The notes under the pieces: generated by a model
The model's database searches: none
Told to the model about the DNA's origin: nothing
What the model saw: only the letters and a program-made list of their open reading frames with translations
Position numbers and translations under genes: made by a program
Virus record (IMG/VR): IMGVR_UViG_3300025000_000278
Span: 1 to 34,618 of that record
Origin: a virus
Length of the DNA: 34,618 nucleotides
Reading direction: 5' to 3' (one strand)
Shown here: in pieces, positions 10,542 through 23,862 of the stretch
How the letters are laid out: each line of letters starts with the position of its first letter
How positions within the stretch are numbered: the stretch's first letter is position 1

Positions 10542-12031
10542 TGCGAAATGAAATCTATGTCCATTTAGCAACCGAGACCAGCTTTACGGACACCTTCGGG
10601 ATTCCGAAGAATGGCGAAGGATCCCTGTTTCCCCTGTCTTGTATCGAAACCAAAGATGCGGATACCTGGGAAGTCGAAATCATCGCTCCGGTTAATGATC
10701 AATCGCTTTTGCTCCATGACCGCATCGTATACTTGAAGACCCGGTATGGTTACCAACCCTTTCGGATTGGTAATCCCGAGTATGGCGACGTCTCGGTTTC
10801 GGTCGTCGCCAAACATGTTGGTTTTGACCTTCAGAATGTGTATCTGGACTTCTCGACTTCGATTGAGAACACCTGTCAGCAAGCGATGGATGACATCTTG
10901 AGCCATGCCATTCCGGCCTGTTCCTTCACCGCCTTCTCTGATGTGTCCGGGGTGGACACGTTTTCCATTTTGCAGGTGTCGGTCCTAGATGCCTTCATCC
11001 AACTTGCCGAGCAGGCGGGAGCCTACCTTGACTTCGATCATTTCCAAATCCGCATCACCACCTCTCAAGGTTCGGATCACGGGGAATCGATCGAATATGG
11101 CAAGAATCTGCTTGGAGCGACGGTTATCGAGAACTGGGACAATGTCGTCACGGATCTTCTACCCGTCGGCAATGCGGAATTAACGCTTCCCGAAGAGTGG
11201 TTGCATGCGGATATCGCCTATGATCGTCCGTATACAAAGCGAATCGAGTTCAATACCGACATGGAAGACAACTTACGCTTTGTGGCGACACTTTATTTGG
11301 CGCGCTATAAGGTGCCTCGTATCAATTATGACGTCCGTTCAACTGCCATTCAGAACGTTCAACTCGGGGACACGATCTCTGTTATCGCGCCGAAGTTCAG
11401 TATCCTAACCCAAGTCATCCGATATCAAAACGACGTGCTTCAGGACGAGATCGTCGCGGTCGAATTCGGGAATTATCAGACCGGATTGAAGCAACTCTTC
11501 GGTGAATACCGTGCGACCATCGAAGCTTCGGCCATTCGCAAAGCGCAGTTGAAAATCGATGAAGTCAACGGGCGCATCTCCGCCATCGCACAGAACATCG
11601 TCCTGATCGCCGGGGACATCGAGAGTCTTGAACAAGGGACCACGGAAATCAACCAACGCTTCGACGGTGTGACGATCACCATCAATCAGCAAGTCGATGC
11701 CTTGGCGCAAGTGCAAGCGGCTACGGACGAGAACACCGCGGCGATCGATGCGACAGCGGAAGCCCTGACGCTTCAGAAAACCTACTACGATTTCGGACCG
11801 GACGGCCAAGTCATCGGTCGCAGCGACAGTCCGGCACAGATCCGCATGGAATACGATGCTGAGTCCAAGGCGCAGGTGGTCGTGACCGACGGATACAACG
11901 ATACCTTGCTACTGAAATCAAACGGGGTGAAGGCGAACAACATTGAAGTGGTCGAATCCTTCATCGCCGGGAATCACAAGGTGCAGAAACTGACCGGGAG
12001 TGACTCGGTTACGATTTGGTTGCCCATCTAG
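10541..12031 (+). CDS. tail-associated hub protein (Tal, gp27-like)
   Basis: 496 aa. The N-terminal ~350 residues look like the prophage endopeptidase-tail or gp27 hub fold (VLDAFIQLAEQAGAYLDFDHFQI, KRIEFNTDM, VQLGDTISVIAPK). They are followed by a coiled-coil stalk (EINQRFDGVTITINQQVDALAQVQ region, about 375-435) and a short C-terminal domain. No peptidase active site is recognised. It plugs the baseplate and probably carries the fibre proteins encoded next. Confidence 0.85.
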   Translation: MRNEIYVHLATETSFTDTFGIPKNGEGSLFPLSCIETKDADTWEVEIIAPVNDQSLLLHDRIVYLKTRYGYQPFRIGNPEYGDVSVSVVAKHVGFDLQNVYLDFSTSIENTCQQAMDDILSHAIPACSFTAFSDVSGVDTFSILQVSVLDAFIQLAEQAGAYLDFDHFQIRITTSQGSDHGESIEYGKNLLGATVIENWDNVVTDLLPVGNAELTLPEEWLHADIAYDRPYTKRIEFNTDMEDNLRFVATLYLARYKVPRINYDVRSTAIQNVQLGDTISVIAPKFSILTQVIRYQNDVLQDEIVAVEFGNYQTGLKQLFGEYRATIEASAIRKAQLKIDEVNGRISAIAQNIVLIAGDIESLEQGTTEINQRFDGVTITINQQVDALAQVQAATDENTAAIDATAEALTLQKTYYDFGPDGQVIGRSDSPAQIRMEYDAESKAQVVVTDGYNDTLLLKSNGVKANNIEVVESFIAGNHKVQKLTGSDSVTIWLPI

Positions 12032-12046
12032 AAAGGGGAGGATTGC

Positions 12047-14416
12047 ATGGCATTAGTCATCACATCATCAGTCGCAATCAACGATTCAACCTCCTCCTAT
12101 AGCGCGGTCGTCTCCGGGAAATTGGTTTCCAATGCGCGAATCGACTTCATCCTTAAAATCAACGGGGTCGCCGTCGCGAGTGTTTCCACGACCGGGACCA
12201 GTGCGACGCTGACCGGCGTGTTGGCTTCCGAGATCTACGACAACGCCCAGGGTCACTCTTTAACCAACGCGGCGACGCTTGAAGCCCTGGAAGACAATGG
12301 ACTAGGGGGTGTCGCGCAATCAGCCTCGAAGTCGGGGAACATCACCATCAACGCGCGGTGCAGCGGGTTAAACACCAGCTCACCGACAAGCGGTTCTCCC
12401 ATCAATCTCGATAGCGGGGATCCGGTGAACATCAGCGCATCCTGGACACGACCCCACGCAGCGTTTCGCGGTCGATTGAAAGGTTATGTCTACAATGGCT
12501 CCACCTATGTCTTGATCTTCAATCGGTATGACTATACGACCAGTGCGAATTTCGACGTCGTGGCGCTGGGATACAACGACGAGATGATCGCCGCGATGAA
12601 CGGAGTCTCACCCCGCAATTTCAAACTGGAACTCTATACGCAGTTTGATGACGGGACGGTGGACAATCTGGACATCGGCGGACTGAACGATTCTGACATC
12701 ATCACCAACGGAGTAACCAAGACCTTCGTCACCCTGTCGCGCATCGCCATCGGGAATTTCGAACTATTACCAATCGATCTGAGTGTACCGTTCACTCTGA
12801 CCACTTACGGGTCGTTTTCGCACACGATACGTTTGTTTTTGAAGAAAACGGATGGAACCTCCGTCCTGATTAAGACACAAAGCGTCTCAGCTGGCGTGGT
12901 CTCCGGGAATTTCGCGATTGGAGCCACGGAACGCTCGATCATTCTCAATGCGCTGCCGACGTCGACGTATGCGACGACGTATGCCGAAGTGGACACGGCG
13001 GCATATGGAACCACCGACAGCAAATCCGTCGCGACGACATTGACGCTTAACGCCGAATTCAAACCGGTGATCGGATCCATCGTCCATGCGGAGAGCGCGG
13101 CGACCCAATATGTCAAAACGGCGCTGGGATATGGGGCAGGGACGCCGTTCTACGTGACGTCGAAGTCCAAAGTCGCCTTCACCATTCCCATCACGCATGC
13201 CACGGGAGCGACGTTGGCGATGATCCGTGTGCAATTCGCAGGGACGGACAAATCACAGGCTGCAAGCCCTCTGACGACGGATGCACTGGTTACGTCCGGT
13301 TCTTTGATGGCGACGATCACGGTCACCGACAGTCGCGGTCGGACTTCGACACTGACAACAGCCGCCATCGTGGTTCGCTCCTACACCTATCCGAAAGTCG
13401 ATAAGTTCGAAGTGTTCCGCGCTGCATCCGTGTCCGGTGCATTTGATCCCCTTGGCACCTATCTTCGCGCCGTTATCCAGGGAACGGCCTACTCCGTGCT
13501 TGCCTTGGACGGCGCGACGCAGAAGAACTGGATCAAGTACAAGATCGACTACCGCGTCAAAAACACCGGTTCCTTCAGCAACAACGCGGCGGTTATACCG
13601 GGCGGACTGACGTTTGGAGAATTGACCATCAACGGAATCGCCGGTTTTCTCGCTGCGAATGCCTATGATGTCCGGATTCGAGTGTACGACGCTTTCTACG
13701 ACTTGGACAATGACGCCTCGCCGCTTGAAGACACCGACGACTACGCGGAAACGCTCACCTTGCTTCAGATCGCCGGGGTTTCGATGTTTTTGGGTCCGGA
13801 TTATGTTGCGTTCGGGAAGGTGCATAGCGGGGGTGCCAACAATACGATCGAAGCACTGAAGGCGATCGTGGCCGGGACACAATTGATTTCCCAACAGGAA
13901 ACCGGGACGCCTCCGTTGGTGGTGGCATCCACGACGCAAGTTCCAAACCTCAACGTTGACCGTCTAGATAATTATCATGCCGGGAACGCCTCCGGGCAGA
14001 TTCCGGTATCCAACGGTGTGATGAACGACAATCTGAACGCCGATCTTTTGGACGGATTTGAAGGTGCGGATCTTCAGGACATCCTCGCGGTCGGATCCAG
14101 CGGGACACATTACTGGATCAAGTTCAAGGATGGGACGCTGATCAAGTATGGTGTGGCGTCAGTAACGATGGCGGTTGCCACAACGTGGGGAAGCGGGTTC
14201 ACTTCGGCGGAGCAAACCTACACCTTCAACACGACGATTCCGTTCACTACGGTTCCACATGTTTCACTGGATCTCATCAATTCCGGCGGATCGACAATGA
14301 TCGCAGCAATCACCAATGCGACGGCTCTGCTTTTCAAATTCGTCGCGTTGCGATTTGCGACATTGGCTTCCGGCGCGATTACCTATAAGTATTTTGCGAT
14401 TGGGCGTTGGAATTAA
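12047..14416 (+). CDS. minor structural / tail fibre protein (DUF859-like)
   Basis: 789 aa, very rich in Thr, Ser, Ala and Gly, made of successive Ig-like beta domains over residues 1-560, with the SGDPVNISASWTRPHAAFRGRLKGYVYNG region resembling DUF859-type minor structural proteins. After FLGPDYVAFGK come the degenerate repeats LNVDRLDNYHAGN and LNADLLDGFEGAD (a motif common in fibre stalks). A C-terminal knob of about 105 residues starting THYWIKFKDGTLIKYG resembles gp53-like fibre tips. Likely contacts the cell surface. AAAGGGGAGG ribosome binding site. Confidence 0.8.
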   Translation: MALVITSSVAINDSTSSYSAVVSGKLVSNARIDFILKINGVAVASVSTTGTSATLTGVLASEIYDNAQGHSLTNAATLEALEDNGLGGVAQSASKSGNITINARCSGLNTSSPTSGSPINLDSGDPVNISASWTRPHAAFRGRLKGYVYNGSTYVLIFNRYDYTTSANFDVVALGYNDEMIAAMNGVSPRNFKLELYTQFDDGTVDNLDIGGLNDSDIITNGVTKTFVTLSRIAIGNFELLPIDLSVPFTLTTYGSFSHTIRLFLKKTDGTSVLIKTQSVSAGVVSGNFAIGATERSIILNALPTSTYATTYAEVDTAAYGTTDSKSVATTLTLNAEFKPVIGSIVHAESAATQYVKTALGYGAGTPFYVTSKSKVAFTIPITHATGATLAMIRVQFAGTDKSQAASPLTTDALVTSGSLMATITVTDSRGRTSTLTTAAIVVRSYTYPKVDKFEVFRAASVSGAFDPLGTYLRAVIQGTAYSVLALDGATQKNWIKYKIDYRVKNTGSFSNNAAVIPGGLTFGELTINGIAGFLAANAYDVRIRVYDAFYDLDNDASPLEDTDDYAETLTLLQIAGVSMFLGPDYVAFGKVHSGGANNTIEALKAIVAGTQLISQQETGTPPLVVASTTQVPNLNVDRLDNYHAGNASGQIPVSNGVMNDNLNADLLDGFEGADLQDILAVGSSGTHYWIKFKDGTLIKYGVASVTMAVATTWGSGFTSAEQTYTFNTTIPFTTVPHVSLDLINSGGSTMIAAITNATALLFKFVALRFATLASGAITYKYFAIGRWN

Positions 14417-14441
14417 GGCGAATGCCTAGAAAGGAGAAGAG

Positions 14442-16490: not shown

Positions 16491-16502
16491 AAAGAGGGAA
16501 AT

Positions 16503-16847
16503 ATGATCAACACCATCCTACTCATCCAAATCCTCGTCATCGCCTTAATTGTCGAGGTGATTGCACTTCAAACCATTCAGATGGTTAAAGGCTACATCCC
16601 CAACACCAGGGCGATCCCCTTCGTTTCTCTCATCCTAAACCTGATCTTGGCCAGCGCCTTCGTCTGGTTCTTCGTGACGTTTGATGAAACGTACCCACTC
16701 TATAAATTGTTTGTCGGTCTCTGGGTTGGGTTCATCTCGTGGATCGGTGCAGATACTCTCTATAAAACACTGAATAGCAAAGGGTTATTGAAATCTCAAA
16801 GCGAGATGTTGCCGCCTGAAGGTGAGAAACCGGAAGGTACGGAATGA
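16503..16847 (+). CDS. putative holin
   Basis: 114 aa with three predicted membrane segments (about residues 3-24, 38-61 and 68-90) and a charged, Pro/Glu-rich C-terminal tail, directly upstream of the lysin. Such a protein would open the membrane at the end of infection so the lysin reaches the cell wall. AAAGAGGG ribosome binding site. I did not match it to a specific holin family. Confidence 0.7.
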   Translation: MINTILLIQILVIALIVEVIALQTIQMVKGYIPNTRAIPFVSLILNLILASAFVWFFVTFDETYPLYKLFVGLWVGFISWIGADTLYKTLNSKGLLKSQSEMLPPEGEKPEGTE

Positions 16848-16948
16848 TGTCCGAGAGAATCGAAGAGATTGAATTGAGCGATCTCGACTACAGTGTCGAG
16901 ATCGCTTTCCTGCTCGCCCAGGAAGAGGAGGGGAAGAAACATGACTAA
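16844..16948 (+). CDS. tiny acidic protein between holin and lysin
   Basis: 34-codon ORF that overlaps the holin stop (ATG inside GAATGATG) and the lysin start. GGAAGG lies upstream at suitable distance. It is acidic (ERIEEIELSDLDYSVEIAFL), with no signal or membrane segment. The codons for SDLDYSVEIA also form a 12-bp hairpin. It may be a real short protein or mainly a device that couples translation of holin and lysin. Confidence 0.4.
   Translation: MMSERIEEIELSDLDYSVEIAFLLAQEEEGKKHD
16877..16906 (+). other. 12-bp inverted repeat upstream of lysin
   Basis: Perfect stem AGCGATCTCGAC / GTCGAGATCGCT with a 6-base loop TACAGT, 34 bases before the lysin ATG. Only TTCC follows, so it is not a full terminator. 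It could delay lysin expression relative to the holin by folding the mRNA, or protect the downstream message. The role is inferred. Confidence 0.6.
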
Positions 16949-17876
16949 AACGAATCTCGGGTTAGTGGAATACGTCAAATCCAAACTTGCACTGAAAACC
17001 ATCTACATGCTCGGTGGATTCGGGCGGATCCTGACTCAGGCAATGATCGATCGCCGTATCAATATGGGATGCCCGCACACGATCCGGAATCTATCTACAA
17101 TACAAGCCGGGATAGGTCGATACTGCTTCGACTGTGTCGGATTGATCAAAGGGTATCTTTGGGAGATTTCCCCGGGCAGAGTCGACTACAACATTCCCAA
17201 AGGATCCGATCAGAACGTCGGCATGATGTACAACAGTTGCACTCAAAAAGGAGTGCTCGTATCCATGCCTGATATTCTAGGACTGTTGGTATTCACAAGG
17301 GATTTGGGACACGTCGGAGTCTACATTGGTAGGGATGCAGCAGGGAAGCGGCAATACATCGAAGCCACTCCGGCATGGGGTAAATGGGGAGTCTGTCAAT
17401 CAAACGACGACATCCGTTCCTGGGCGTTCTGGGGAAAGTATCACCTAATCGAGTACATTGAGCCGGTTGTTGAACCAGCTGTCCCGAAACTGAAATTCAA
17501 AGCCGGTCAAAAAATCGTTCTCAACGGGAGGGTATACAAGAACTCACTCATGGGTGGTCCGGGTGCGATCTTCTCCAAACGTGTAGGTTACATTCGATTT
17601 CTGGTCGATGAAGAAATTGTGCCGGCACCATACCACATCGATGGATTAGGTTGGGTCAAAGAGGAGTCACTAGCATTAGCACCAATCACGATTGAGATTC
17701 CCAAAATCAAGACCGGTGACAAGGTAAAGATTTCCGGGACACATTATGCCACCGGTGAGAAAGTCCCGTTCTGGGTTAAACTACGCGTCCATACAGTGGC
17801 TGCTGTATCAGGATCCAAAGCGCGTCTCAAAGAAATCAACTCATGGGTGAACATTAAGGATCTCAAGAAGGTTTAG
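16941..17876 (+). CDS. endolysin, NlpC/P60-type with SH3-like C-terminal domains
   Basis: 311 aa peptidoglycan hydrolase. Residues 1-170 form a cysteine peptidase: YCFDCVGLIKG gives the nucleophile (Cys65) at the head of a helix, LGHVGVYIG gives His124, and YIEATP follows. Residues ~185-245 and ~258-311 are two SH3-like strand-rich modules (FKAGQKIVLNGRVYKNS; IKTGDKVKISGTHYATGEKVPFWVK), likely wall binding. I chose ATG 16941 (GAGGAGGGG 8 bases upstream); upstream in-frame codons overlap the tiny ORF. Acts on the cell wall after holin action. Confidence 0.88.
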   Translation: MTKTNLGLVEYVKSKLALKTIYMLGGFGRILTQAMIDRRINMGCPHTIRNLSTIQAGIGRYCFDCVGLIKGYLWEISPGRVDYNIPKGSDQNVGMMYNSCTQKGVLVSMPDILGLLVFTRDLGHVGVYIGRDAAGKRQYIEATPAWGKWGVCQSNDDIRSWAFWGKYHLIEYIEPVVEPAVPKLKFKAGQKIVLNGRVYKNSLMGGPGAIFSKRVGYIRFLVDEEIVPAPYHIDGLGWVKEESLALAPITIEIPKIKTGDKVKISGTHYATGEKVPFWVKLRVHTVAAVSGSKARLKEINSWVNIKDLKKV

Positions 17877-17880
17877 AGCG

Positions 17881-18189
17881 ATGGATTGGTTACTACAAAG
17901 TATCGCCACTAACCTGGTGTGGGCGGCGCTTGGCGCCATGATGAGTTATATCCTTTTCCTTCGTAAGCAGCTTAAGTCAATGAAGAACGCGCTTGTTGCA
18001 TTACTTCGAAATGCAATCGTATCAGCGTACAATAAGTCGGTCGAACGGAAATTCGCACCGATTTTCGAACGTGAGAACGTTCAAAAGCTCTTCGATGAAT
18101 ATAAAATCCTTGGTGGAAACGGTACGATTGATCACTTGATTGATGAATTCCATGAACTTCCAACGCATCAGATCGAGCAAGCCCCCTGA
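17881..18189 (+). CDS. second lysis-module membrane protein (holin-like)
   Basis: 102 aa. One N-terminal membrane segment (about residues 5-27, LVWAALGAMMSYILFL), then a charged helical region with AYNKSVERKFAPIFERENVQ and LGGNGTIDHLIDEFHELPT. This arrangement recurs in small membrane proteins beside lysins in Bacillota phages. It may be a holin, antiholin or accessory lysis factor. Four bases after the lysin stop, and it is the last gene before a strong terminator. Confidence 0.6.
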   Translation: MDWLLQSIATNLVWAALGAMMSYILFLRKQLKSMKNALVALLRNAIVSAYNKSVERKFAPIFERENVQKLFDEYKILGGNGTIDHLIDEFHELPTHQIEQAP

Positions 18190-18206
18190 AAATGGGGGCG
18201 TTTTTT
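18181..18206 (+). terminator. terminator of the late operon
   Basis: GCCCCC / GGGGGC stem with loop TGAAAAT followed by G and TTTTTT. It begins within the last codons of the preceding membrane-protein gene and closes the structural and lysis transcript. The accessory region starts here. Confidence 0.9.
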
Positions 18207-18237
18207 GTTTACATGGTTTAATCACTGTGATATCCTT

Positions 18238-18320
18238 TAAACATGATGAAAACGTGATAATGTACGCAAAAACATGCATAATGTACGGAAAAACATGCAA
18301 AAAACATGAGAAAAACGTGA
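18238..18320 (+). repeat. helically phased A-tract / ACRTG repeat array
   Basis: Six AAA(A)CATG or AAAACGTG boxes at about 18241, 18252, 18272, 18293, 18304 and 18315, with spacing of 10-11 or 20-21 bp, that is, on one face of the helix. Two perfect-but-one 21-bp tandem copies (18257-18277 and 18278-18298, ATAATGTACG followed by C or G and AAAAACATGC) form the core. The array lies directly upstream of a good promoter (18339-18367). It may be intrinsically bent DNA, a cooperative operator, or both. Confidence 0.65.
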
Positions 18321-18338
18321 AGTTCGTCATCAAATCAC

Positions 18339-18367
18339 TTGCAATCACCCATGGGCGGATGTACTAT
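18339..18367 (+). promoter_or_regulatory. promoter of the structured RNA
   Basis: TTGCAA (18339-18344), 17-bp spacer, TACTAT (18362-18367). Start expected near 18373, so the RNA begins with the hairpin described next. The preceding phased A-tracts may act as an UP-like element. Confidence 0.65.
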
Positions 18368-18371
18368 AAGG

Positions 18372-18549
18372 TTGAGGTAAGGAGGACTCATCTTACTTCA
18401 AACCTAACGCTCATTATTGAGCGAAGATCATCGATTGAAACGCTAACCAGTACGCGTTAAACAAATAACTGGCGCGACCATTAGTCGCTTACCCGTATGC
18501 GACTGAAAAGTAACGGGCGAGAATATCCTCCTTCGTGGAGGATTTTTTT
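18372..18549 (+). ncRNA. predicted type III antitoxin RNA (tandem pseudoknots)
   Basis: About 175-nt RNA between its own promoter and its own terminator, ending 11 bases before the toxin ATG. It starts with a hairpin (GAGGTAAG / CTTACTTC, 10-base loop), then CGCTCA-TTAT-TGAGCG. Two H-type pseudoknot units follow. Unit 1: stem 1 AACGC(18439)/GCGTT(18454), stem 2 CCAGT(18447)/ACTGG(18468). Unit 2: stem 1 AGTCGC(18483)/GCGACT(18499), stem 2 CCCGT(18492)/ACGGG(18513). Both have a 3-nt loop 1 (TAA/TTA), 2-nt loop 2 (AC/AT) and an A-rich 8-9-nt loop 3; the period is 44 nt. Terminator: ATCCTCC-TTCGT-GGAGGAT-T7 (18525-18549). In type III systems such repeats bind and inhibit a ToxN-like RNase. Confidence 0.72.
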
Positions 18550-18559
18550 AGGGGGAAAC

Positions 18560-19027
18560 ATGATCGAATTTGGGTTATATACTATGACAGATGAGTATAT
18601 GCATGATTATTATCCAGCCAGATATCCTCAAGATAAGGCATTCAAACGACCATTTTTTTTAGTTATTGATGATACTTCCGTAAATGGTTTGATTTGGCTT
18701 GTTCCACTTAGCAGCAAAACTGATAAATATTCTCCAATTTTAGCTAAGTATGAGAATGCTGGAAAGATAATCCATCTATATGGAAGTAGTGATTCCGTTA
18801 TTTTAACCCAGAATGTTGTTCCAGCCCTACCTAGACATATTGATGAAGAGTTTCAAGTAAGGCAAATACATTATGTTATGCATAGCGATTTGATTAAGAA
18901 AGAGATTCAAAAGAAAGTGAGTGCCGTTAGAGTTCTGATTAAAAGAGGATTGATTCCGGATCACGAGGCAATTAAATTGTTGGAGCAAAGACTTCTAGAT
19001 GAGATCAAAACTGACAAATTTATATGA
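18560..19027 (+). CDS. ToxN/CptN-like endoribonuclease toxin (predicted)
   Basis: 155 aa. The first half is strand-rich with KRPFFLVIDD and GLIWLVPLSSKTDKYSP, the pattern seen near the start of ToxN/AbiQ-fold toxins (a barrel related to MazF/Kid). QNVVPALP and a long helical C-terminal half follow. I chose ATG 18560 (GGGGG 5 bases upstream); the frame is open further upstream but that would cross the terminator. Terminator-then-toxin order and the pseudoknot RNA upstream are the defining layout of type III toxin-antitoxin loci, where leaky read-through makes the toxin. Size and the 44-nt repeat period fit the CptIN/TenpIN groups better than ToxIN (36 nt). Remote similarity; catalytic residues not identified. 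Confidence 0.62.
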   Translation: MIEFGLYTMTDEYMHDYYPARYPQDKAFKRPFFLVIDDTSVNGLIWLVPLSSKTDKYSPILAKYENAGKIIHLYGSSDSVILTQNVVPALPRHIDEEFQVRQIHYVMHSDLIKKEIQKKVSAVRVLIKRGLIPDHEAIKLLEQRLLDEIKTDKFI

Positions 19028-19092
19028 AACAATTATTGGAAAAATTGTATGAAACGTTTGATTACGATACAGAGCCGCAAAACCTTGTGAGT

Positions 19093-19114
19093 ACCCATGC
19101 TAAATGGGTTTTTT
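19093..19114 (+). terminator. terminator after toxin gene
   Basis: ACCCAT-GCTAA-ATGGGT followed by TTTTTT. A 30-codon ORF (19024-19116, starting ATGA over the toxin stop) runs into this hairpin and is probably not a gene. Confidence 0.8.
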
Positions 19115-19152
19115 AAAGCCATGATTAAGAACTATCTAAAAGGAGTACATGT

Positions 19153-19398
19153 ATGAGAAAAATCAGTGATCTCTCTGAGCAAGGGAAGGAAAACCTTCTC
19201 GACAAATTACGTACGATATTTGAGGACATTGGACTTGGCTTAGATAAAGGTGAATCATTCATTCAAAATGCATTGGTTCACGTATCAGATCGCTGGGAGA
19301 TTAGTGAAAAGGATCTTTACGAATTCTACATGGGTTATTTCAATGGAGAAAGTCGAAAAAACTCATCAATTTTTGATGACGAGCAATTAGGAGATTGA
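19153..19398 (+). CDS. hypothetical protein, 81 aa
   Basis: Not recognised. Acidic helical protein (KENLLDKLRTIFEDIGLGLDKGESFIQNAL, then EKDLYEFYMGYFNGE). AAAAGGAG lies 8 bases before ATG. No membrane segment. It stands alone between the toxin terminator and a tiny ORF, in the AT-rich accessory region, so it is probably expressed from the prophage. Function unknown. Confidence 0.6.
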   Translation: MRKISDLSEQGKENLLDKLRTIFEDIGLGLDKGESFIQNALVHVSDRWEISEKDLYEFYMGYFNGESRKNSSIFDDEQLGD

Positions 19399-19435
19399 CT
19401 TTCATCGACGTATAAGAGTATTAGGAGGTGATATT

Positions 19436-19534
19436 ATGATCCTGGCATTCTGGTTGGAGTGCTTTCTAGATTTCTACCGTGAGGTTGAGAAATCCGGATT
19501 TACTAAGCAGCATAGTGACGAGAGAATGATTTAG
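19436..19534 (+). CDS. tiny MILA-family protein, copy 1
   Basis: 32 aa, too short for normal gene finders, but TTAGGAGGTGATATT precedes the ATG (a near-perfect ribosome binding site) and the product MILAFWLECFLDFYREV recurs in the 36-aa ORF at 21527 (about 21 of 32 positions identical, with the same upstream bases). The conserved part is aromatic and amphipathic. Function unknown; a small toxin or membrane-active peptide is possible. Confidence 0.55.
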   Translation: MILAFWLECFLDFYREVEKSGFTKQHSDERMI

Positions 19535-19636
19535 TATACAGAGTAATAGTTTTCCTAGAATCTAAGTTATTATCTAGGCTGAATTATCAATCGTTTTATG
19601 ATTATATGATCCTATAATTTTAAAGTTTCTTACTAG

Positions 19637-19645: not shown

Positions 19646-19669
19646 ACAGTGACGAGGGGGGAGCTAAGC

Positions 19670-20710
19670 ATGTCAAAGCCTAATTTCAATGTCGTTGTAT
19701 TCGTATTTCTGTTTATTTTACCAATTTTCATACTTTTCAAAGTTTTGTCAGCAATTGGTTCTATACTTACCAATCAACTAACATTAGTTTTAGTACTTAT
19801 TCTTTTGGCTTTTGCTATTATATATAAAATTCTTGAGTACTTTTACTACCAGTCCGATGATTTTCTAGAGATTAAGAGGCGATTTGAGGACTATGTTAGC
19901 GACTGTAATGGTTTGAATGCACATATAGATGAGCTGAAACTAACATATTCCAACCTTGAGAAAACCCAATATGGAAATGCTAGTCTATCCGATTCAAGTA
20001 ATTACAATTTTAGAAGAGTACATCAAGTTGACGCAGTAAAGTCTAATTTCGTATATGAATGTTCAGCTCTAATATGTAAAAATGCGGAAGCACAACCATT
20101 CAAATATCTGTGTAAGTACTTTAATATAAAGCCTGATGAGAAATCACTCAGTAATTTTGAGAAAGTTTTGAATAATTTCTCTGCAGCTGAGGAAGGGAAA
20201 ACCTTTCTACATGATAAACTCGAAAGTATAAAGTTGTCGGTTAAAAATGATGTTCCTTGGTATATTGGTAAATTTGGTATGAAAAAGTTAATGCATAACT
20301 TGGGTTTTTGGGAAGTGGATTTTAAGACGATTTATTATCCAACTTATTCTTTTAGGTACATAAGCCCCGGTGGGAACAAGTCAACTCGTTGTGATATTAC
20401 ATTAGATATTAGAAACCTAAATGATTTCATAAAGTATCTTTCAAATATTGTGAAATTTAACAAAAGTGTTGAAGGCCAAAGAGCAATCATGACTTCAAGT
20501 TTGAGAGAATACATAAAGAAACGAGATAAATACACCTGTAAAAAATGTGGAGTGTCATCTAGCGATGAACCACATTTGCTATTAGAAATCGATCATATCA
20601 TGCCTGTTTCAAGAGGTGGATTAACTACGGAAAGTAATTTACAAACGCTTTGTTGGAAATGCAATAGAGCAAAGGGTGCAAAGATCCTAGCTGAGGAAGC
20701 AAGATACTAG
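19670..20710 (+). CDS. membrane-anchored HNH endonuclease
   Basis: 346 aa. Two N-terminal membrane segments (about residues 8-30 and 37-54) place the rest on the cytoplasmic side. Residues 60-120 are helical; 200-270 form an alpha/beta region (WYIGKFGMKKLMHNLGFWEVDF, TRCDITLDIRNL). A classic HNH zinc finger closes the protein: CKKC (Cys290, Cys293), EIDHIMPVSRGG (His309), SNLQTLCWKCN (Asn323, Cys328, Cys331). Unlike the packaging-type HNH at the end of the window it has its own promoter and lies in the accessory region, so defence against other phages or superinfection exclusion is plausible. I chose ATG 19670. Confidence 0.75.
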   Translation: MSKPNFNVVVFVFLFILPIFILFKVLSAIGSILTNQLTLVLVLILLAFAIIYKILEYFYYQSDDFLEIKRRFEDYVSDCNGLNAHIDELKLTYSNLEKTQYGNASLSDSSNYNFRRVHQVDAVKSNFVYECSALICKNAEAQPFKYLCKYFNIKPDEKSLSNFEKVLNNFSAAEEGKTFLHDKLESIKLSVKNDVPWYIGKFGMKKLMHNLGFWEVDFKTIYYPTYSFRYISPGGNKSTRCDITLDIRNLNDFIKYLSNIVKFNKSVEGQRAIMTSSLREYIKKRDKYTCKKCGVSSSDEPHLLLEIDHIMPVSRGGLTTESNLQTLCWKCNRAKGAKILAEEARY

Positions 20711-21526: not shown

Positions 21527-21637
21527 ATGATCTTAGCGTTCTGGTTAGAATGTTTTCTAAGCTTCTATAGGGATGTGGATGCTTCCAATCTATCGGACCA
21601 GCAAAAAGATGAAGTAATGATTTGGTATGTAAGTTGA
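21527..21637 (+). CDS. tiny MILA-family protein, copy 3
   Basis: 36 aa. AATAGGAGGTGATATT before ATG is the same ribosome binding region as copy 1, and MILAFWLECFL-FYR-V is shared. The DNA differs at many third positions (CTG/TTA, GCA/GCG, TTG/TTA) while the peptide is kept, which argues for selection on protein. Unknown function. It lies about 60 bases before the attP arm repeats. Confidence 0.55.
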   Translation: MILAFWLECFLSFYRDVDASNLSDQQKDEVMIWYVS

Positions 21638-21950: not shown

Positions 21951-23225
21951 TTAAGAAGATACCTTCTTGAGACCGCTTTTTGTGAGCTTAATATGATCAG
22001 GAAATCTCTTTTTTGAACTTGCATGAGTTCTTCTCGACAGTTTCAACGGGGCGACAACTGTCATTGATTTTACCATCTCGATTTGTTTTTCTCTCCAAAG
22101 ATGCGCGTAAGTTTTGTCGATTTCTTCTCGCGAATCACCTACACGCTTGGCAATTTGCATATCACTATATCCCATATTTATTAAGTAAGAAACATGCGAA
22201 TGTCTGAAGTCGTGAATATTAATAGGTTCAATCCCAGCAACTTTAAAATAGTAGTCCTTAATATTACATAATGTCGTCGGTGGTAACCTATCATAGAAGC
22301 TGACAAGTGGGCGATCAAGTGAATAGCCAGGAAGAGTTCGATAATGGTAGATCAGGTTGATTAATAACTGATCCACTTCATCTGGTACTACAATATTTCG
22401 ATTTCCGTTTTTTGATTTCGGTGGTGTAATAATTTTGTTCGTATAGTCCCAGTTCTTGTAGACACTAAGTTCTTTATTGATGAAATCGTAGTCTCTAATA
22501 TCGAGCGCCATGAGTTCACCCTTACGTAGTCCACACCAGAACAACAATGAGAATATGATTGTATGCTGCATTCTATTCAATTCTTCATCTGGATGGCTTT
22601 TAGTCACCCTTGTATGGGCTTGTATCACACCATACAGCGTTCTATACTGTGAGGTGGTAATAATGGACATTGAAGGTAGAACAGGTACTGTACGGCGTTT
22701 CCTGAAGCCCACGTACCGTAATGGGTTAAAGTTGCACATCTTTTTTGTGATCGAGTATTCGAATATTGCATTGAGCAAAGTTTGTATTTTTTCAAGAGTT
22801 CTATTATCATAATGTTCTTCTCTTTGATTGCCAGAAGCTTTGGTGCCACTTACATAGGTGGCACTAAGTAACTTCTCTTGCCATTTTTCAATATGGATCG
22901 GTTCGATGCTTGTGAGAATCATCTCACCAAAAAAGACCTTAATGTGTTTTTCGTAAACTTTCTGATTATCATATTGAGAACGCAACTTCATGAGGTCACG
23001 GTCCTTTTGTTTCATGTATTCAGTAAACAAATCATTAAATGTGATAATCGTGCTTGCATCACGACTTTTGATTGAATCCATAAACGCAGATTCAGCATCA
23101 ATTGCATCCTGTTTTGACCATTTATCATTTCGCTGCTCTTTTTTTCGCCAATTACCGGTAGGGTCCTTGTAATTCAATCTAAAACCATAGACATACTTTT
23201 TGTCTTTTTTTAGCTTGGTAAGCAT
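21951..23225 (-). CDS. int: tyrosine integrase
   Basis: 424 aa. Order: N-terminal AP2-like arm-binding domain (KKYVYGFRLNYKDPTGNWRKK, residues ~9-29), SAM-like core-binding domain (~62-165), and catalytic domain with Arg234 (GLRKGE), His338/Arg341 (HDFRHSH) and Tyr373 (TYAHLW). Catalyses integration at attP. I chose ATG 23225 because AAGGAAG lies 7 bases upstream and the start follows the repressor stop by one base (TAG-T-ATG); an in-frame ATG at 23261 would overlap the repressor. Co-transcribed with the repressor, so it is probably expressed in the lysogen. Confidence 0.93.
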   Translation of the reverse strand: MLTKLKKDKKYVYGFRLNYKDPTGNWRKKEQRNDKWSKQDAIDAESAFMDSIKSRDASTIITFNDLFTEYMKQKDRDLMKLRSQYDNQKVYEKHIKVFFGEMILTSIEPIHIEKWQEKLLSATYVSGTKASGNQREEHYDNRTLEKIQTLLNAIFEYSITKKMCNFNPLRYVGFRKRRTVPVLPSMSIITTSQYRTLYGVIQAHTRVTKSHPDEELNRMQHTIIFSLLFWCGLRKGELMALDIRDYDFINKELSVYKNWDYTNKIITPPKSKNGNRNIVVPDEVDQLLINLIYHYRTLPGYSLDRPLVSFYDRLPPTTLCNIKDYYFKVAGIEPINIHDFRHSHVSYLINMGYSDMQIAKRVGDSREEIDKTYAHLWREKQIEMVKSMTVVAPLKLSRRTHASSKKRFPDHIKLTKSGLKKVSS

Positions 23226-23226
23226 A

Positions 23227-23862
23227 CTAGAACTTCCTTCGAATTTCGATGACTCGTCCAACTATTTCTACTGGGATGGATATGATCTCTTCATGATTGA
23301 AAACAAGCGGCTCGTAATTATTATTGAAAGGGATCAACATAATGCCTGATTCACGTTTAACAACTCGTTTTACCGTAGCATCATGTCCATTGATCAGGAC
23401 TATTCCAATTTGTCCACTATCAACATCTGCTTGTTTCTTAACGATTGCAATATCACCATCAATGATTACTGGTTGCATGCTATCACCCCTGATTTGTAAT
23501 GCAAAAAAGTCCCCAGTCTTCGCTAATTCCGGAGATATTTCTTCGTAATCAATAATATCTTGAACTGCTTCGATTGGTAACCCCGCAACAACTTTTCCCA
23601 AAACCGGTATCTTTATTCCGTTCGTTGATGGAATCGGCATCATATCTCTATGGTAGTCATTTTCATAACCAAGTAGCCATGTTTCTTTCACACCTAATGC
23701 AATTGCAATTCTAGAAATCTTGTCACTCTTTGGCATCACCTTACCGCTCATATATTGACTAATAAAAGATTTACCAATTCCGGACTTTTCTGATAAATCA
23801 GATTGTTTGAATCTTTTCATTTTGAGTGCTTGATGAAGCCTTTCAACAAAGATGCTGTCCAT
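23227..23862 (-). CDS. CI-like repressor, XRE helix-turn-helix plus S24 peptidase
   Basis: 211 aa. The helix-turn-helix is at ~18-45 (KQSDLSEKSGIGKSFISQYMSGK). The C-terminal LexA/CI fold has the self-cleavage site VVAGLP (Ala93-Gly94), catalytic Ser128 in RGDSMQP and Lys165 in ATVKRVV. Keeps lytic genes off in the lysogen and is expected to cleave itself when RecA is activated by DNA damage. Divergent from the Cro-like gene across a 166-bp control region. Confidence 0.93.
   Translation of the reverse strand: MDSIFVERLHQALKMKRFKQSDLSEKSGIGKSFISQYMSGKVMPKSDKISRIAIALGVKETWLLGYENDYHRDMMPIPSTNGIKIPVLGKVVAGLPIEAVQDIIDYEEISPELAKTGDFFALQIRGDSMQPVIIDGDIAIVKKQADVDSGQIGIVLINGHDATVKRVVKRESGIMLIPFNNNYEPLVFNHEEIISIPVEIVGRVIEIRRKF

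Follow-up and report, generated by a model that had tools for sequence, protein, structure and literature searches.

What is a structured RNA, followed by a terminator and a gene for a 155-aa protein, doing on a phage genome? The locus lies in IMG/VR virus record IMGVR_UViG_3300025000_000278, and the window analysed here is the whole of that stretch, 34,618 bases (positions 1-34,618). A preliminary description had read the locus as a type III toxin-antitoxin system with a tandem pseudoknot RNA and an RNase of the ToxN/CptN fold. Our analysis supports the type III assignment and narrows it to CptN-type. We consider it very probable that the locus is CptIN-type cargo of a temperate phage, whose host is probably a member of the Bacillota, and that CptN, once freed, would help to retain the prophage and probably give the lysogen abortive protection. 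What was computed for the locus is homology, predicted fold, catalytic residues, antitoxin geometry, gene order and phage context.

Phage setting and features of the locus

Tape-measure and tail genes, an integrase and a CI-like repressor are annotated in the window, which we therefore take to be from a temperate tailed phage. The tape-measure protein has 280 matches among phage records, each below 60% identity. Those named phages that fall within the ten best matches listed infect Enterococcus or Staphylococcus, and Arthrobacter and Gordonia phages are likewise found within the 280; with hosts so mixed, placing this phage's host in the Bacillota is a guess from sequence. The features discussed below are listed by position.

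18249-18320, plus strand: five copies of AAAACRTGM ahead of the RNA, spaced 20/21/11/11 (motif count)
18339-18367, plus strand: weak candidate promoter, TTGCAA-17-TACTAT (by eye)
18369-18405, plus strand: 5' leader hairpin of about 13 bp (folding)
18408-18423, plus strand: second leader hairpin, 6 bp with a loop of 4 (folding)
18433-18477, plus strand: predicted 45-nt processed unit 1 (E. rectale register)
18439-18472, plus strand: pseudoknot 1 core, S1 AACGC/GCGTT, S2 CCAGT/ACTGG, loops 3/2/9 (pseudoknot scan)
18478-18522, plus strand: predicted 45-nt processed unit 2 (E. rectale register)
18484-18517, plus strand: pseudoknot 2 core, S1 GTCGC/GCGAC, S2 CCCGT/ACGGG, loops 3/2/9 (pseudoknot scan)
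18525-18549, plus strand: Rho-independent terminator separating the antitoxin RNA from the toxin gene (terminator scan)
18550-18555, plus strand: ribosome-binding site AGGGGG (read directly)
18560-19027, plus strand: CptN-type endoribonuclease toxin, 155 aa, intact ORF (homology, predicted fold)
19093-19114, plus strand: terminator-like hairpin 3' of the toxin gene (terminator scan)
21951-23261, minus strand: integrase
23227-23862, minus strand: CI-like repressor

The toxin is a divergent CptN

The terminator and the intact ORF behind it were found where they had been described. The 155-aa product matches the NCBIfam model NF047359 (CptIN family toxin) with an E value of 7.1e-19 and a score of 68.1 bits, short of the curated 90-bit cut-off; this equivalog is an annotation model and not the biological definition of CptIN, and given the score we hold the claim at "divergent CptN-type". 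The sole phmmer match in the PDB is 4RMO, the CptN toxin of Eubacterium rectale (E 2.7e-17), to which the window toxin is 31% identical. The only Pfam match, Retrotran_gag_4, is at chance level (E 0.17, under its cut-off), and PADLOC gave no match for this protein. An AlphaFold2 model built on the 60-row alignment A3 (mean pLDDT 85.4, pTM 0.81) retrieved 4RMO first in Foldseek (E 1.8e-9, TM 0.77), followed by MazF chains (E from 3.0e-4), ToxIN 7D8O (E 2.6e-3), ToxN 2XD0 (E 3.7e-3) and AbiQ 4GLK (E 4.4e-3), an order that bears out the fold proposed earlier. The active-site Ser - Ser/Thr - Arg/Lys triad aligns with S51, S52 and K53, and Y7, R30, D55, K56 and Q84 are also kept. By homology and predicted fold the protein is a CptN, a far outlier, and it is CptN-type rather than ToxN-type.

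It is extremely unlikely that the protein is instead a stand-alone MazF/PemK-like toxin, of type II or an orphan, with the upstream RNA incidental. Most of the 50 Foldseek rows listed are MazF chains, and a downstream ORF of 81 aa (19153-19398) that matched no family could in principle encode a protein antitoxin. However, these chains rank below 4RMO, the first of them by more than five orders of magnitude in E value; RNA of CptI geometry lies directly upstream of the toxin gene, as it does in relatives; and a terminator-like hairpin stands between that gene and the 81-aa ORF.

The divergence itself calls for attention. In a tree of 61 rows the window toxin has the longest branch (4.09, against a median of 0.19) and is placed, unsurely, near the E. 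rectale protein beside two relatives, L010 and L012. Its Phe98 aligns with Tyr104 of CptN, a position that is Tyr or His in 59 of the 61 rows and Asp in the one remaining; in the crystal of the E. rectale protein Tyr104 stacks on G44 and helps hold A45 (PMC4627078), and it seats the scissile base. His93 stands where 58 of the 61 rows have Tyr. In INPHARED phages tblastn with the window toxin found no relative, nor did scans of viral contigs for exact peptides from the toxin or from a two-row alignment; four plasmid matches from tblastn are 26-28% identical to the toxin. The long branch, the two substitutions and the lack of a close relative in these searches would suit a decaying remnant, in which toxin homology and RNA are real and divergence has impaired the toxin or the processing. 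We think this very unlikely, since ORF and triad are intact and both pseudoknots are fully paired despite their divergence from each other.

The antitoxin RNA holds two CptI-like pseudoknots

A pseudoknot scan of 18339-18559 returned two units, and neither the best nor the second-best was equalled in strength in any of 200 dinucleotide shuffles, so the two tandem H-type pseudoknots first described stand. Both units have loops of 3/2/9 and 5-bp stems, within the ranges first given; the spacing had been put at 44 nt and is 45, the E. rectale CptI layout without a gap. Three of the ten stem pairs are changed on both sides between the units with pairing kept, in line with the earlier remark that different stem bases preserve the structure. 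Strict-geometry units also occur singly at three further places in the window (both strands), the tandem pair only at 18439 and 18484. Rfam models returned nothing at gathering thresholds for the window RNA; four matches at E 3.6-8.8 are at chance level.

The reference repeat of E. rectale was taken from a primer in PMC4627078 and consists, in order, of a 6-nt tail, a 5-bp S1, a loop of 3, a 5-bp S2, a loop of 2, an A-rich loop of 9 and five tail nucleotides with GA at the end; that paper gives loop 1 as one base, G13, and the 3 of our parsing takes in its neighbours. In this register cleavage is predicted after CGCGA (18477) and after CGAGA (18522). The kink base, U30 in E. rectale, is replaced by C in the first unit and by A in the second. 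Across 14 distinct strict-geometry units C11, U12, G22 and A29 are invariant, and the same source reports that A29U destroys antitoxicity in E. rectale. In the alignment of these 14 units, 8 of 10 pairs change on both sides, and covariation is 0.781 as against at most 0.219 for slid versions; the units were chosen by geometry, which makes their pairing 100% by construction, and the count of further pair types points the other way (14 against a shuffled mean of 15.8, with 482 of 500 shuffles at or above the observed value). We therefore rest the structure on the window-scan shuffles, on the survey of 107 loci and on an alignment of three viral loci, the last two described below.

Rao et al. (PMC4627078) describe E. 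rectale CptN as cutting its transcript into 45-nt units, with a 2:2 ring that cages the toxin. The inter-unit linker of the window, CGCGACCATTA, does not have the GA^AAG context seen in E. rectale, and it contains no ApA step. Because the stems have diverged, the linker is without ApA and Phe replaces the Tyr that seats the scissile adenine, one might suppose that the pseudoknots are not cut apart and act as a single asymmetric dimer joined covalently, which would add a variant to the type III antitoxins; an RNA fused in this way could present two different faces in closing the 2:2 ring. By eye, 5 of 63 linkers, the window's included, are without AA, so that the window would have company in this arrangement. 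We regard it as unlikely, and take cleavage into two 45-nt units as the working model.

Leader, promoter and flanking elements

The hairpins ahead of the pseudoknots do fold as had been described: the leader (18370-18437) has a folding z of -4.25, and none of 200 shuffles is as stable. Their reading as signs of a new variant, or as a degenerate third unit, was dropped, since pseudoknot scans find no third unit in the leader and relatives' leaders hold long hairpins too (at least 9 bp in 19 of 60 distinct leaders, the window's among them; shuffles give 64 of 600). They may have a protective or spacer role. Antitermination through the 5' hairpin loop, whose GGAGGA is the same sequence as part of the terminator's 3' arm, was also set aside. 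The 6-nt leader-terminator match of the window is joint longest among 38 loci tested (window included), and the longest match averages 4.34 over these loci against 4.19 with shuffled leaders, averages that lead us to regard it as probably chance at this locus.

The promoter of the preliminary description finds no support here and stays a guess: TTGCAA-17-TACTAT is absent from the six sites of a consensus scan, and six is itself the shuffle level (mean 6.1). Upstream of it, the AAAACRTGM array may represent regulator sites or phased A-tracts; the motif occurs eight times in the whole window against 2.5 expected, a count reached in 0 of 100 shuffles for a pattern chosen post hoc from 18249-18320.

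Relatives carry the same arrangement

CptN relatives were found with a DNA motif scan for W..P..SS(K/R).DK(Y/F), which yielded 6 viral (IMG/VR) contigs and at least 115 genome stretches. In BLASTP, all except one of the 123 motif ORFs match either CptN or the toxin of the window; the set counts the window ORF and one plasmid locus, and is biased toward this motif. Identity between the window protein and the 59 A3 relatives is 20-32%, and all ten of these relatives that were scanned pass the NF047359 cut-off, with 142.9-196.9 bits. The PHROG family phrog_33519, which has no functional name, matches the window toxin (9.2e-20) and also the three relatives tested (L010, L007 and L059), and its members are probably CptN. 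Thus phage-borne CptN is already in databases, unnamed, in six IMG/VR contigs and in this family. On a Fusobacterium plasmid (L003:2983-6289) the genes for a CptN relative, for an annotated ToxN/AbiQ-family toxin and for an HNH endonuclease follow one another.

For 107 of the loci at least 250 nt upstream were available, near-identical loci being kept in. With looser loops, a tandem pseudoknot pair spaced 42-51 nt lies upstream in 67 of the 107 (window included), whereas shuffles gave 1 in 535 and control windows elsewhere in these loci 0 in 507; a stricter stem score gives 63 of 107, against 0 of 535 and 0 of 495. Terminator-like hairpins are found in 69 of the 107 (window included) and in 42 of 535 shuffles. 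Tandem pseudoknots are thus far commoner upstream of homologues than by chance; 40 loci gave no tandem pair under the scan rules, some of them because their units break those rules (L002 and L033 show units). Homologues without structured RNA had been named as the case that would speak against the locus; excluding the window, 66 of 106 loci have the pair, and the proposal passes this test. Units of strict E. rectale length are present at least once in 15 of 107 loci, against 12 of 1,070 shuffles, so the strict geometry is not general among CptN loci. Covariation across homologous loci, suggested as a check, is seen in a plain MAFFT alignment of the viral loci L007, L009 and L011, where S1 goes from ACCGC/GCGGT to GTCGC/GCGAC with two compensated pairs.

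Likeness to known systems

The window locus is a known kind of system and a far-diverged member of it. With E. rectale CptIN (4RMO; Rao et al. 2015, PMC4627078) it has in common the toxin fold and triad, two 45-nt genetic repeats with identical stem and loop lengths by our parsing, an A-rich loop that includes A29, a GA closing each predicted unit at its 3' end, and a terminator followed by the toxin. Unlike that system, its two units differ from each other in both stems and it departs at U30 and Tyr104; it is also phage-borne, whereas E. rectale CptIN is chromosomal. ToxIN (P. atrosepticum, B. thuringiensis, E. coli) and AbiQ share the toxin superfamily and the logic of pseudoknot RNA, terminator and toxin. 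Their fold match to the window toxin is much weaker than that of 4RMO, and the ToxI and antiQ repeats given in a review (PMC5086642) are 34-36 nt, in contrast to the 45-nt spacing here, which places the window locus outside ToxIN/AbiQ. The same review mentions one toxIN locus found on a prophage.

A cargo slot shared with a sister phage

A sister contig, L127, is 92% identical to the window at 11669-14434 and 82% at 16495-17885, and its likeness returns at 19409-19537 (81%). Between these stretches (L127:4549-8096, window 17881-19409) L127 carries IetA and IetS (PADLOC E 2.1e-136 and 4.4e-244), preceded by a 104-aa ORF that is a holin by position only, and the window has its own, different 102-aa ORF and the CptIN locus. 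IetAS is an entry in the PADLOC library of known and candidate defence systems, and the swap, a single case read from sequence, is consistent with a slot that takes defence genes as cargo. Another close relative, L133, is 96-98% identical over two stretches; its 23,146-base record, possibly a fragment, has no toxin match.

Other genes near the slot may be noted. A 353-aa protein (window 19649-20710) has an HNH nuclease domain at its C-terminus (Pfam HNH, 9.6e-13) and, by eye, a hydrophobic N-terminus, and is a second candidate cargo gene. A small ORF beginning MILAFWLECF, about 32-36 aa long with a strong ribosome-binding site, flanks the cargo genes in two occurrences and a third copy of its start only (window 19436-19534, 20775, 21527-21637), and is present in L127 too. 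The idea that it marks a widespread cargo boundary was dropped, as one pattern scan of viral contigs matched none beyond this sister.

Mechanism and role

We propose that a single transcript would carry the two non-identical 45-nt pseudoknots, a terminator with partial readthrough and then cptN. By analogy with E. rectale CptIN, CptN would bind the pseudoknots and cut the RNA about 5 nt past stem 2 of each, after GA, and the 45-nt units would cage it inactive in a 2:2 protein-RNA ring. Were the supply of RNA to stop, through loss of the prophage or through transcription shutdown by an infecting phage, the RNA would vanish first, and the freed CptN would cut cellular and phage RNA. The prophage would thereby be retained and the lysogen probably protected abortively, a defence suggested by genomic context.

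Retention might be the whole of the selective role: in this account the CptIN is real and works as an addiction module for the prophage, not in defence against other phages. E. rectale CptIN placed in E. coli brought retention of a plasmid to 100% and aborted 0 of more than 200 coliphages (PMC4627078). On the other side, an integrated prophage would presumably need addiction less than a plasmid does, and the PADLOC-listed IetAS at the same slot of the sister phage points to a defence slot and leads us to favour a role in lysogen defence. Addiction without defence is a possibility to be taken seriously, though we lean away from it; an anti-phage role, suggested by IetAS at that slot, is plausible.

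The locus illustrates that the geometry of an antitoxin can stay exact while the toxin and the stem sequences drift far, and we suggest the name CptN for phrog_33519. Here a temperate phage carries a far-diverged CptIN at the slot where its sister has IetAS. Since E. rectale CptIN aborted no coliphages in E. coli, a phage-borne CptIN in such a slot would be well suited to testing whether there is any defence in the CptIN branch.
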